From assembly GCA_027364635.1 (NCBI GenBank), contig DAHXOZ010000010.1, positions 1-36,656 of the forward strand: a stretch of DNA of 36,656 nucleotides. Direction: 5' to 3'. A model generated the notes under the pieces. That model had not been told where the DNA came from, did no database searches, and saw nothing but the letters and a program-made list of their open reading frames with translations. A program made the position numbers and the translations under genes. Below are positions 13,803-17,600 of the stretch, in pieces. Numbering within the stretch: position 1 is the stretch's first letter; each line of letters starts with the position of its first letter. Source of the DNA: a bacterium (GTDB lineage: Bacteria; Bacteroidota; Bacteroidia; Chitinophagales; Chitinophagaceae).

Positions 13803-16800
13803 ATGGAATATAATTTTAGAGAAATAGAAAACAAGTGGCAAAAAACCTGGAAGGAAACAGGTGTATATCATGTAAGTAATTCATCTGGTAAAGAGAAATA
13901 TTATGTGCTGGATATGTTTCCTTACCCGAGCGGTGCCGGCCTGCATGTCGGACATCCCTTAGGCTATATTGCCAGTGATATTTATGCCCGGTATAAAAGA
14001 TTGAAAGGATTTAATGTGTTGCACCCGATGGGTTTTGATAGCTTTGGCTTGCCTGCTGAACAGTATGCAATTGAAACCGGGCAACACCCTGTAATTACTA
14101 CTGAAAAAAATATTGCCACTTTTAAAGAGCAGTTAGACAAAATTGGTTTTTGTTTTGACTGGAGTCGTGAAATTAAAACCAGCGATCCGGAATATTATCG
14201 CTGGACCCAATGGATTTTTTTGCAAATTTTTAATAGTTGGTTCAATCGAAAAACCAATAAGGCAGAATCGATTGAAACATTGATAGATATTTTTGAAACA
14301 AAAGGGACAAGCGAAATTGATAGCGCTCATTCTTTTACTTCCGATGATTGGAAAAGTTTTGATGAAAAAAGGAAAGAGGAAATTTTAATGGATTTCAGGC
14401 TTGCATTTTCATCTTTTGGTGAAGTGAACTGGTGTGAAGCATTGGGAACTGTTTTGGCAAATGACGAAGTAGTAAACGGTGTAAGTGAGCGTGGCGGTTA
14501 CCCGGTTGAAAAAAAGAAAATGCGGCAATGGTATTTGCGAATAACCGATTATGCCGATAGGCTGCTGGAAGGGTTGGAAACAGTGGACTTTAGCGATGCG
14601 ATGAAAGAAATGCAGCGCAACTGGATTGGCAGAAGCGAAGGCGCGGAGATGGAATTCAAAGTAAGCCTCACCCCTAACCCCTCTCCAAAAGGAGAGGGGG
14701 ATAAAACCTCCATTCAAACTGCTAATAAGAAAATATGGCCGGAGTTAAAGGATTTATCAAGAGAAAACAGGAAAGAAAAAACTCCTTCTGAAGATAAATT
14801 ATGGCAAAGATTGAGAAACAACCAGTATGGTTCAAAAGTGAGAAGGCAACATGTTATTGATGGATTTATTATCGATTTTGCATTCCTGAATGAAAGGATA
14901 TTAATTGAAGTGGATGGTGAATACCATAACGATCCGGAGCAAAAAAAATATGACGATTCAAGGACTGAATATTTAGAAAGCCTTGGATATAAAATTATCA
15001 GGTTTACGAATGATGAAGTATTAAATCATTTTGAAAAAGTTAGTGGAGTTATTAAAAGTGAGTTGGCTTCTTCTTCCCCCCTCTCCGGGAGGAGAGGGGA
15101 CGGGGGTGAGGCTTCAATTAAAGTCTACACTACCCGTCCTGATACGATCTTCGGAGTTGATTTTTTGGTACTTGCACCCGAGCATGAACTGGTAAATGAA
15201 ATTACTACCGAAGCACAACGGTCATCTGTAAACGAATATTTGGATTATGTAAAAAGCAGGAGCGACAGGGAAAGAATGGCGGAAGTGAAACAAATTACAG
15301 GTTGCTTTACCGGCGCTTATGCAGTCAATCCTTTCAATGGCCAAAAAGTTCCGATCTGGATCGCCGAATATGTTTTGGCCGGATATGGAACCGGTGCGAT
15401 TATGGCCGTGCCTTGCGGAGATCAAAGAGATTTTGATTTTGCCACACATTTTAATATTCCCATTACCAATATTATCGGCGACCATTTTAATGGAAAGGAA
15501 GCGAATCCAACAAAGGAAGCAGTTTTGCAAAATTCAGGTTTCCTTGATGGAATGTTGATGAAAGACGCGATTGGGGTTGCAATTGATAAAATAGAAGAAT
15601 TAAAAATCGGGAAACGAAAAGTAAATTATAGAATGCGCGATGCGGGTTTCAGTCGCCAGCGTTATTGGGGCGAACCATTTCCAATTATCTGGAGCGATGG
15701 AATTGCAATCCCTTTAGAAGAAAAAGAACTTCCGCTGGAATTGCCTTTTGTAGAAAAATATGGACCCGGAAAAAATGGAGAAGGGCCGCTGTCTAATTTA
15801 ACTGATTGGGTCCTCACCCCCGTCCCCTCTCCACGAGTGGAGAGGGGGGCAGCACTGGTTCCGAAATATAAAGTCTCTGCTCCGGTTCAATATGAATTGG
15901 CAAAGAGCATGCGTAAGGATCATACAAAAGCAGAAGATAATCTTTGGCAGAATTTGCGCAATAATAAGTTGGGAACAAAATTCAGAAGGCAGCACCCTAT
16001 TGAATCATACATTGTTGATTTTATTTCTCTTCAGGACAACTTGATTGTAGAAGTAGACGGCGGATATCATCAGAACGAAGAACAAAAAGTTTATGACGAA
16101 GAAAGAACAAAACGATTAAATGAAATAGGTTTTCATGTCATTCGATTTAGCAATGAAGAGGTTCTGGAAAACGTATTTGAAGTACTTAAAAAAATAAAGG
16201 AAGCTCTTGCCGCTCAATCAATAAAACGAACCGCGAAAAATGCAGAGGAGACTGAATTTACTTCGCCCCTCTCCACTCGTGGAGAGGGGATGGGGGTGAG
16301 GGAAACCTCCACCATGCCCGGCTACGCAGGCAGCAGTTGGTATTTTCTACGTTATATGGATCCTCACAACAATCAAACTTTTGCCGACAGAAAAGCAACT
16401 GATTACTGGAACCAGGTAGATGTTTATGTTGGTGGCACCGAACACGCTGTCGGCCATTTATTGTACAGTCGTTTATGGACAAAAATTTTATATGATCTTG
16501 GCTATATCAGTTTTGAGGAGCCTTATAAAAAGTTGGTGAACCAGGGAATGATACAGGGGAGCAGCAGGTTTGTTTATAGACTTAGTATAACAAGTAAATC
16601 TGGCAACTCTAATTTTGATTATCCGATTTACATCTCTAACAAATTTTATCAGGAATATTTAACTCATGGCTTTCTTTCAAAGGAAACGCTTGAGGATTGG
16701 CTAAATGAAAGATTTAATTTAGGATGGAAAGGATTATCTGTTGATCCTTCAGCAGGCATCCTTGCAATAACTCCTATCCATGTTGATGTAAACATTGTGG

Positions 16801-17600
16801 ACGGAGTTGAATTAGATATTGACGCCTTTAAAAAATCAAAACCGGAATATGCAAATGCTGAATTTATTCTTGAAGATGGCAAATACATCTGTGGAGTAGA
16901 AACAGAAAAAATGTCCAAATCAAAATACAATACGGTTAATCCAAATGATTTGGTTGACAAATACGGCGCTGATACTTTCCGGATGTATGAAATGTTTTTG
17001 GGCCCGGTAGAACAAAGCAAACCGTGGGATACCAAGGGTATTGAAGGCGTTCATCGTTTCTTAAAAAAGTTGTGGCGTTTGTTTTATGATGATTCTTCAC
17101 CCCTCTCCCTGGGGAGAGAGGCTGGGGGTGAGGCTTCTCCAGCCGAATTAAAATCCCTTCACAAAACGATCAAAAAAATTGAAGAAGATACCGAACGTTT
17201 TTCTTTCAATACGGCTGTCAGTGCGTTTATGGTTTGTGTAAATGAATTGACGGATCTTAAATGCCATAAAAAAGAAATTCTTGAACCGCTGTTGATTTTA
17301 TTGACGCCTTATGCGCCTCACATTGCTGAAGAGTTGTATCATTCTCTCGGAAATTCTGAATCAATTCTTAATGCTGAATATCCAAAACTGGAAAATAAAT
17401 ATTTGGTTGAATCTGAAAAAGAATACCCGATTTCTATAAATGGAAAATTAAGAACAACGATCACGATTTCATTAGATGCAACCCAACAGGAAGTGGAGAA
17501 AATGGTTTTAGATAATGAAGTAGTTCAGAAATGGATAGACGGAAAAACAATAAAGAAGATCATTTTTGTTAAAAATAAAATGGTGAATGTGGTGATGTAA
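13803..17600 (+). CDS. leuS: Leucyl-tRNA synthetase with two in-frame nuclease-domain insertions
   Basis: 1265 residues; Bacteroidota LeuS is normally about 930-950. LeuS charges tRNA-Leu. Its class I motifs are HVGH at residues 48-51 and KMSKS at 1036-1040; the CP1 editing domain starts near VYTTRPDTIFGVDF (about 441), and the catalytic block GSSWYFLRYMDPHN follows the second insert. Residues about 288-438 and 670-833 are foreign: each holds a DUF559 Vsr-like nuclease domain between Pro/Ser/Gly-rich peptides encoded by palindromic repeats. Residues about 1098-1112 (SSPLSLGREAGGEAS) are a solo repeat. Removing the three leaves about 936 residues of ordinary LeuS. All inserts keep frame and fall at loop positions: before the CP1 domain, between W-V and T-M-P-G, and after the KMSKS domain. 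No intein or intron splice motif is visible, so the product is probably one large protein. Confidence 0.97.
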   Translation: MEYNFREIENKWQKTWKETGVYHVSNSSGKEKYYVLDMFPYPSGAGLHVGHPLGYIASDIYARYKRLKGFNVLHPMGFDSFGLPAEQYAIETGQHPVITTEKNIATFKEQLDKIGFCFDWSREIKTSDPEYYRWTQWIFLQIFNSWFNRKTNKAESIETLIDIFETKGTSEIDSAHSFTSDDWKSFDEKRKEEILMDFRLAFSSFGEVNWCEALGTVLANDEVVNGVSERGGYPVEKKKMRQWYLRITDYADRLLEGLETVDFSDAMKEMQRNWIGRSEGAEMEFKVSLTPNPSPKGEGDKTSIQTANKKIWPELKDLSRENRKEKTPSEDKLWQRLRNNQYGSKVRRQHVIDGFIIDFAFLNERILIEVDGEYHNDPEQKKYDDSRTEYLESLGYKIIRFTNDEVLNHFEKVSGVIKSELASSSPLSGRRGDGGEASIKVYTTRPDTIFGVDFLVLAPEHELVNEITTEAQRSSVNEYLDYVKSRSDRERMAEVKQITGCFTGAYAVNPFNGQKVPIWIAEYVLAGYGTGAIMAVPCGDQRDFDFATHFNIPITNIIGDHFNGKEANPTKEAVLQNSGFLDGMLMKDAIGVAIDKIEELKIGKRKVNYRMRDAGFSRQRYWGEPFPIIWSDGIAIPLEEKELPLELPFVEKYGPGKNGEGPLSNLTDWVLTPVPSPRVERGAALVPKYKVSAPVQYELAKSMRKDHTKAEDNLWQNLRNNKLGTKFRRQHPIESYIVDFISLQDNLIVEVDGGYHQNEEQKVYDEERTKRLNEIGFHVIRFSNEEVLENVFEVLKKIKEALAAQSIKRTAKNAEETEFTSPLSTRGEGMGVRETSTMPGYAGSSWYFLRYMDPHNNQTFADRKATDYWNQVDVYVGGTEHAVGHLLYSRLWTKILYDLGYISFEEPYKKLVNQGMIQGSSRFVYRLSITSKSGNSNFDYPIYISNKFYQEYLTHGFLSKETLEDWLNERFNLGWKGLSVDPSAGILAITPIHVDVNIVDGVELDIDAFKKSKPEYANAEFILEDGKYICGVETEKMSKSKYNTVNPNDLVDKYGADTFRMYEMFLGPVEQSKPWDTKGIEGVHRFLKKLWRLFYDDSSPLSLGREAGGEASPAELKSLHKTIKKIEEDTERFSFNTAVSAFMVCVNELTDLKCHKKEILEPLLILLTPYAPHIAEELYHSLGNSESILNAEYPKLENKYLVESEKEYPISINGKLRTTITISLDATQQEVEKMVLDNEVVQKWIDGKTIKKIIFVKNKMVNVVM
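14663..15114 (+). mobile_element. Palindrome-bounded DUF559 nuclease cassette 1, in frame within leuS
   Basis: About 452 nt. Left unit: AAGCCTCACCCC, then CCCCTCTCC (14678-14686), loop AAAA, GGAGAGGGG (14691-14699). Right unit, inverted: CCCCTCTCC (15078-15086), loop GGGA, GGAGAGGGG (15091-15099), then GGGGGTGAGGCTT to 15114. Between them about 115 codons encode a DUF559 domain: SEDKLWQRLRNN, KVRRQHVIDGFIIDF, ILIEVDGEYH, IIRFTNDEVL. The E, D and E-V-D-G acidic residues expected of this Vsr-like fold are retained. There is no ATG inside the cassette, so it is translated only as part of LeuS unless a GTG/TTG start is used. AATTCAAAGT to the left and AATTAAAGT to the right are similar flanks, possibly by chance. 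Confidence 0.85.
15812..16301 (+). mobile_element. Palindrome-bounded DUF559 nuclease cassette 2, in frame within leuS
   Basis: About 490 nt. Left unit: CCTCACCCCCGT, then CCCCTCTCCAC (15824-15834), GA, GTGGAGAGGGG (15837-15847). Right unit, inverted: CCCCTCTCCAC (16266-16276), TC, GTGGAGAGGGG (16279-16289), ATGGGGGTGAGG to 16301. The interior encodes a second DUF559 domain: AEDNLWQNLRNN, KFRRQHPIESYIVDF, LIVEVDGGYH, VIRFSNEEVL. It matches cassette 1 at about 43 of 85 aligned residues, roughly half, with the acidic core identical. The two are therefore separate or ancient insertions, not a recent duplication. One internal Met (SMRKDHTKAED) could allow separate translation. The palindrome loop differs in length from cassette 1, so the right-end peptide is read in another frame but is still stop-free. 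Confidence 0.85.
17094..17136 (+). repeat. Solo palindromic repeat unit within leuS
   Basis: CCCCTCTCCC (from 17100), a TG centre, GGGAGAGAGG, then GGGGGTGAGGCTT. Ten-base arms with one mismatch. It matches the right-end unit of cassette 1 along its length, including the TTCTTC lead-in and GGTGAGGCTTC tail, but has no nuclease gene. It encodes SSPLSLGREAGGEAS, in frame, in the linker after the LeuS KMSKS domain. Confidence 0.85.

Follow-up and report, generated by a model that had tools for sequence, protein, structure and literature searches.

Within the window, a stretch of 36,656 nucleotides from a member of the Chitinophagaceae that was analysed at its full length, the leuS gene carries two in-frame cassettes, each of which encodes a DUF559 nuclease domain between inverted palindromes. 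With a probability of roughly 0.6, such cassettes are selfish, homing-like elements that are translated in place in their host enzymes without splicing. The broader proposal that they form a phylum-wide class of mobile elements, which live as an unspliced extra domain, combine homing with occasional retargeting and decay to in-frame scars, is put forward more tentatively, at somewhat short of even odds.

The features of the leuS frame are collected in Table 1. A Pfam scan of the frame returned LeuS domains and DUF559 in two stretches (whole-protein E 2.3e-64), which are overlapped by the MTES_1575 nuclease model. An earlier note, made from the sequence alone, had described two in-frame DUF559 cassettes bounded by inverted palindromes in one 1265-codon leuS frame, and this description is borne out by the frame itself, the Pfam scan, the profile search of the genome and the complementarity of the ends. 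Each end consists of a hairpin CCCCTCTCC..GGAGAGGGG adjoining an outer arm CCTCACCCC/GGGGTGAGG; in both cassettes, one end is the inverted copy of the other. With up to 2 mismatches allowed, the window contains five copies of this tag-plus-hairpin pattern, whereas 100 dinucleotide shuffles contain none; the fifth copy is the nuclease-free palindrome that lies in frame at site C. CGTC stands in the spacer of some, not all, of the window palindromes, as judged by eye in a comparison with the CGTC tag of Rickettsia palindromic elements (RPE). Folded as RNA, two of the five palindromes clearly beat their shuffles (z -3.1 and -4.4) and three do not (z -0.3 to -1.2). Subtraction of the inserts leaves a LeuS of normal size, as the same note had calculated: among the 20 family orthologues fetched, those that are empty at all sites measure about 968-1032 aa, leader codons included.

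Table 1. Features of the leuS frame and its three inserts (positions in the window)
Feature	Positions	Strand	Size or basis
leuS open frame, cassette host	13803..17600	+	1265 codons / 1265 aa
Cassette A, site A = editing-domain hairpin loop before VYTTRPDT motif	14663..15114	+	inverted ends, 452 nt end to end; G313 empty here
Cassette A DUF559 nuclease domain	14745..15065	+	profile search of genome, E 5.6e-30
Cassette A left palindrome = outer arm + hairpin	14663..14700	.	sequence, pairing
Cassette A right palindrome = inverted copy of the left one	15077..15114	.	sequence, pairing
Cassette B, site B = loop before RETSTMPGYAGSS motif	15812..16301	+	41-nt ends 93% complementary; G313 empty here
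Cassette B DUF559 nuclease domain	15894..16208	+	profile search of genome, E 6.3e-36
Cassette B left palindrome	15812..15847	.	sequence, pairing
Cassette B right palindrome	16266..16301	.	sequence, pairing
Third palindrome, site C, in frame in leuS, without nuclease, scar-like	about 17096..17134	.	motif 17113-17133, minus strand, 1 mismatch; missing in G313

The nuclease was characterized by a profile built from 20 cassette domains. Against the PDB, this profile matched 3hrl ('Endonuclease-Like Protein', E 4.7e-31) and 3r3p ('Mobile intron protein', E 1.9e-6), the latter of which we take to be I-Bth0305I. In a review, I-Bth0305I figures as the EDxHD homing endonuclease (PMC3943268). The signature [ED]-x-D-G-x-x-H is present in 128 of 129 in-gene domains, the exception being L051, and the cassette DUF559 is accordingly classed, by sequence, as a putative Vsr/EDxHD-like nuclease domain with conserved catalytic residues. 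Weak matches were obtained with PADLOC, to a homing endonuclease model for domain A (2e-6) and to DpdF as the best match of domain B (6e-6). In a structure model of site A (385 residues, 41 sequences), the ten-residue confidence means of DUF559 range from 87 to 95 over residues 71 to 180, bar one block of 69, the linkers at 53-63 and 186-194 fall below pLDDT 50, and the LeuS editing domain around the cassette resembles 4k47 (Z 24.3, 2.1 A over 183 residues). DUF559 is thus modelled as a fold of its own on disordered linkers, with the editing domain predicted to be intact. The model of site B was set aside for the low confidence of its LeuS part (mean pLDDT 70, pTM 0.40).

The sites themselves are of a particular kind. 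In a comparison of 15 empty orthologues, site A ranks among the least conserved 7% of LeuS positions and site B among the least conserved 4%, whereas their flanks stand at the 83rd percentile; the contrast is weaker at site C (16th percentile, flanks 65th). Conserved blocks enclose a variable loop at both site A and site B, in agreement with the insertion into loops that had been suggested before.

Alignment of LeuS with its relatives, proposed in the earlier note, revealed a patchy presence of the cassettes and not the same cassette at the same site in all of them. The closest relative read, the congener G313 (LeuS 87% identical over the C-terminal 431 residues), is without these inserts at sites A, B and C. 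Other congeners carry cassettes in LeuS site A, IcmF and AroC (G383, its LeuS cut by the locus end) or in LeuS site B and IcmF (G362), and a profile search of three more (G045, G134 and G198) gave no DUF559 match. Sixteen of 20 family orthologues, which were taken from the top of the LeuS list so that the counts give no rate, have no cassette-sized insert at site A or B; the exceptions are a long site A insert in L156, L162 and L163 and a bare palindrome in L159. A normal LeuS domain is ruled out by G313 and these 16 orthologues. In the family-wide search, LeuS was matched in 371 of 394 genomes, with at least 23 frames of at least 1,090 aa that were not individually inspected.

A natural series at site A is provided by genus g29: L054 and L156 have the full cassette, L159 has nothing but a palindrome, and in L164 DUF559 is absent from the site. 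Over 25 nt, the L159 palindrome matches the right end of the L156 cassette exactly in its right half; its left half is identical to the left end of L054 for 14 nt, followed by one mismatch in the next 11. From these letters, L159 looks like a state in which the nuclease was deleted between the two palindromes with the frame kept, and it is this one series that supports a decay to scars; the bare palindrome may also be an independent insertion. AT-rich palindromes of another family (AATTGACAATTCACAATTGTCAATT; AATTTGAAATTTCAAATT) are seen in the cassette-free site A loop of L146 and L164. No target-site duplication was evident by eye in the window or in genus g29.

The element recurs in many other genes and species. 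A search of the source genome for further cassettes, also proposed before, returned three DUF559 matches, two in leuS and one in IcmF, all of them in frame inside enzymes. The IcmF cassette lies in a 1314-aa frame, with DUF559 between the B12-binding and MeaB domains. Solo palindromes of the same genome are intergenic, apart from one in frame in a glycosyltransferase-like gene (named by eye).

By profile search, DUF559 is present in 209 of the 394 genomes of the family and in 170 of the 296 of the phylum, and among the matches listed the frames are often several hundred and up to 1,484 aa long. Two samples were read more closely. The family sample comprised 100 loci from the top of a score-ranked list together with the window and its IcmF locus. 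It holds 108 domains: 77 with more than 60 aa of open frame to either side, 7 with such a frame on a single side, 22 that stand alone and 2 that extend past the end of the stretch. In the sample of named genomes, the best 80 of at least 592 DUF559 stretches, the corresponding counts are 52, 10, 14 and 4. Taken together, the 182 loci contain 188 DUF559 domains, 129 of which are flanked on either side by over 60 residues of open frame; owing to a slight overlap of the samples, these 129 comprise 126 distinct domain sequences. The frame touches the locus edge in 12 of the 77 in-gene cases from the family and in 8 of the 52 from named genomes. This count is mechanical; a motif-based assignment placed 92 of the 129 at 11 host sites.

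The hosts named by Pfam or NCBIfam, from single examples, include LeuS, MetG, AroC, MetH (several sites), CinA, IcmF, adenine deaminase and tryptophan dioxygenase; an AMP-binding ligase, acetate-CoA ligase, MiaB-like proteins, Lhr-like helicases, HsdR and an M23 peptidase; and RecG, IleS, ValS, UDP-GlcNAc epimerase, CCA transferase and an alpha-xylosidase-like enzyme. DUF559 also lies in frame in the PriA of an alphaproteobacterial MAG (L254:3964-6732, +), so the phenomenon may extend beyond Bacteroidota. Only distant matches, below 60% identity, were found in phages (2 of 50,697 records) and plasmids (37 of 72,556 records). Several variants of the arrangement were seen. In one HsdR frame (L046:2806-6945, +), a DUF559 cassette is accompanied by a GIY-YIG nuclease domain, likewise in frame (residues 265-331); a palindrome-like CTGCGTGCGGACACGCACAG stretch precedes this domain, which may belong to a cassette of a parallel kind. 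DUF559 is fused in frame to the N-terminus of TrpA in L104 and of an amino-acid kinase in L127 (by Pfam), L324 and L325 (by eye), the loci coming from different genomes.

Paired ends are a property of the cassettes beyond leuS. Compared with codon-shuffled partners, the ends of in-frame cassettes reach a mean pairing score of 15.1 against 7.9, and in 58 of 86 cases they score above every one of the 20 shuffles. Hairpins that reach 8 bp occur on both sides of 67 of 129 in-gene cassettes but of only 2 of 129 shuffled ones, and on at least one side of 113 against 29. About half of the in-gene cassettes have clear ends on both sides, the rest being degraded or missed. In 10 of 22 stand-alone DUF559 domains, the ends likewise outscore each of 20 shuffles. 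From cassette to cassette the palindromes vary in their letters, and a cassette's own ends outpair swapped ones at LeuS A (12 of 14), LeuS B (9 of 12) and CinA (7 of 8), without such an advantage at AroC (4 of 10), the C-terminal MetH site (5 of 10) and adenine deaminase (0 of 3); MetG gave 4 of 7. The evidence for co-evolution of the two ends is mixed.

It is conceivable that the palindromes are the mobile part, REP- or MITE-like and moved in trans by some enzyme, and that DUF559 is cargo with a role in, for example, defence or repair; among the alternatives this one survives best, though it is unlikely. The exact motif TCACCCCNNNCCCTCTCC occurs in 69 of 394 family genomes, and 14 of these 69, with as many as 19 copies, are without DUF559. 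Of 30 loci read in the two motif-richest genomes (82 and 19 copies), 24 lie in no frame of more than 150 aa, and three of the remaining six are one leuS. A role as cargo would also suit a DUF559 protein of Caulobacter, which according to an excerpt acts on unmethylated DNA (PMC12907096). Against this, motif and nuclease are associated, DUF559 being present in 55 of the 69 motif-bearing genomes and in 154 of the 325 others (odds ratio 4.4, Fisher p 6e-7, relatedness uncorrected), and the kinship of DUF559 with a homing endonuclease gives the nuclease itself a role in mobility. A moving enzyme was sought in Y1_Tnp, which is present in all 10 genomes searched: no palindrome of the CCTCTCC type stood beside 10 Y1_Tnp (RAYT/IS200-like) loci, a CCCCCTT-type string was found at 2 of the 10 loci read, and no link to RAYTs was seen at these loci.

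The motif-richest genome, G247, has its 82 matches on both strands. At some of its loci (for example L275, L289 and L293) palindromes are nested in a larger repeat with the ends AAAAGTTTTTCG / CGAAAAACTTTTA, and at its LeuS site A (L133) tandem palindrome-coded peptides precede DUF559, as if several neighbouring insertions had taken place.

How the cassettes arrived can be approached through their relationships. A tree of 184 domains requires 56 changes of host-site label, against 118 in shuffles, so that cassettes at one site tend to be kin; the alignment is short, many forks are unresolved and a label change may be an arrival or a departure. Well-supported branches still imply four or more changes of label for LeuS site A and two or more each for LeuS B, MetG and IleS. 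A clearer case is site B in genus g8, where the cassette of G230 is only 0.49-0.54 identical to those of G007, G331 and G107, with hosts at 0.81-0.83; these three cassettes are mutually 0.69-0.76 identical, with hosts at 0.85-0.87. With the window's cassette, that of G230 shares an identity of 0.72. The G230 assembly is a draft of about 680 contigs, and its leuS is cut by a contig end. Two lineages therefore came to occupy the same loop, or one took the place of the other, and arrival or replacement at a LeuS loop does happen.

Between such events, the cassettes are for the most part inherited along with their hosts. Fourfold-site divergence was compared in 144 same-site pairs, which are non-independent, often near saturation and include three that are one record read twice; in two pairs the cassette is less diverged than the host (p<0.01), and in none is it more diverged at this level. 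At six of the seven sites, the distances of host and cassette are correlated, if weakly at LeuS A (0.29) and LeuS B (0.40); RecG shows no correlation (r 0.07, p 0.27, n 7). With 142 of 144 pairs free of a divergence difference at p<0.01, co-conversion or recent horizontal homing is unsupported. No recent within-genome transposition was found in 28 loci of 5 multi-copy genomes, where the best pair with an in-gene member is 70% identical over 281 nt and the best overall, between stand-alone copies, 78%. The nuclease is under purifying selection, with a dN/dS of 0.05-0.25 in 15 of 22 chosen pairs, the other seven being saturated. Host-like divergence and the correlation of distances point to long vertical inheritance between jumps, with a nuclease that looks functional throughout. 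A simple homing cycle predicts that the nuclease decays after fixation; its integrity through long vertical descent therefore counts against pure homing and leaves room for a benefit to the host or a structural constraint.

This purifying selection and vertical co-descent would suit a domesticated DUF559 that benefits the host in repair, defence or regulation and is kept as a normal extra domain. Such a role is nevertheless improbable, as the hosts are unrelated and the sites many, close relatives are without the domain, lineages differ at one loop within genus g8 and palindrome-only remains occur.

The selfish, homing-like cassette is retained as the best reading. The cassette consists of a Vsr/EDxHD-like DUF559 nuclease between two mutually inverted REP-like palindromes, lies in the host frame and would be translated there without splicing. 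The nuclease would cut an empty or new target, and repair would copy the cassette in. Such homing by cleavage and copying is the likeliest way for the cassette to move, because its nuclease is kin to a homing endonuclease and is kept intact and because sites recur. Occasional mis-targeting might carry the cassette to a new gene, and only in-frame insertions in tolerant loops would survive. In-frame tolerance would follow from stop-free palindromes and flexible linkers, and an essential gene would shelter the element, since the host would be harmed by many deletions or frameshifts. Later loss of the nuclease, by deletion between the palindromes, would leave an in-frame scar. Co-descent with the hosts, an intact nuclease throughout that descent, the lack of a recent within-genome copy in the 28 loci compared and of a target-site duplication visible by eye, palindromes without nuclease and the roughly one half of cassettes that are without clear two-sided hairpins weigh against this reading.

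Residence in conserved genes is shared with inteins and introns, and an insert that is spliced out at the RNA or protein level by an unrecognised mechanism might be considered. This is very improbable. No intein (Hint) domain is among the six families listed by the Pfam scan of the 1265-aa leuS frame, and no Rfam match reached the gathering score over 13803-17600, the sole sub-threshold match being the palindrome itself and not an intron. Moreover, the insert has just about 150-164 codons, mostly nuclease, and the frame is open through it, which an RNA intron would not need. The earlier note had likened the element to a homing intein without splicing. The absence of splicing agrees with these scans, in which neither splicing domain nor intron was detected; for homing, divergence in step with the hosts and the lack of a recent copy speak the other way, so that behaviour like a homing intein is still something that we infer, with some help from the match of the DUF559 profile to 3r3p.

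An assembly error or binning artefact, which the draft state of the source genome (3.73 Mb, 527 contigs, 85% complete) might suggest, has a negligible probability, as named isolates share this architecture (among them Ilyomonas limi, with a cassette in LeuS, Agriterribacter humi, Maribacter luteus, with one in RecG, and Tamlana nanhaiensis) and it is also seen in assemblies of 1-8 contigs (G255, G289 and G068).

For selfish elements in essential genes, self-splicing is generally thought to be necessary for tolerance. Here, in a widespread case, the insert seems to be tolerated because its sequence has no stops, its nuclease folds on its own and its linkers, placed in variable loops, are flexible. 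Whether intragenic homing requires splicing thereby becomes directly testable. Such elements would offer a natural route to new enzyme domains and scars, would account for palindrome-coded peptides in proteins and would yield a catalogue of permissive loops in housekeeping enzymes. If the broader, phylum-wide proposal is true, LeuS, RecG, AroC, MetH and other core enzymes are the platform from which the element is expressed; a nuclease cassette that persists unspliced and in frame in core enzymes of a whole phylum would be a surprise for specialists in inteins, homing elements and aminoacyl-tRNA synthetases.

No description of in-frame DUF559 cassettes was found in the literature searched (mostly without subscription papers and without bioRxiv preprints), and among papers naming DUF559, judged by their titles and the beginnings of their abstracts, none is on intragenic cassettes. 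Several known systems share part of the arrangement; apart from inteins, they are compared here as the excerpts of the cited papers present them. Inteins have the in-frame, stop-free insertion in a conserved host gene in common with the cassettes, but their splicing domain is not in the leuS frame. The ShiLan insertion in phage methylase genes is likewise stop-free in its host gene, encodes an endonuclease, has no recognisable intein or intron and is predicted to remain in the protein (PMC11855218). Its nuclease is of the HNH type and is read out of frame from its own start, whereas the DUF559 cassettes are in the host frame, palindrome-bounded and located in bacterial core genes (PMC11855218). 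The WHO homing elements of yeast are also tied to an essential metabolic gene without protein splicing, but WHO genes lie downstream of FBA1 and are separately expressed (PMC7282813), and the cassettes lie inside the host frame. EDxHD/Vsr-like homing endonucleases such as I-Bth0305I have a nuclease domain related to the cassette DUF559; I-Bth0305I, however, belongs to a group I intron (PMC3943268), and no intron was detected in leuS.

On the side of the palindromes, REP elements are short, carry an asymmetric outer arm and are in some cases intragenic, as here, but the REP/RAYT system has a GTAG tag (PMC3733652) and the window palindromes, by eye, have outer arms CCTCACCCC instead. Rickettsia palindromic elements equally place palindromes in frame inside unrelated genes; they are about 150 bp long and encode a peptide, with no nuclease mentioned in the excerpt (PMC10969869), whereas the full form described here has a nuclease domain. 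The element lies between RPE-like coding palindromes and homing elements, and would constitute a separate class if its mobility were shown.
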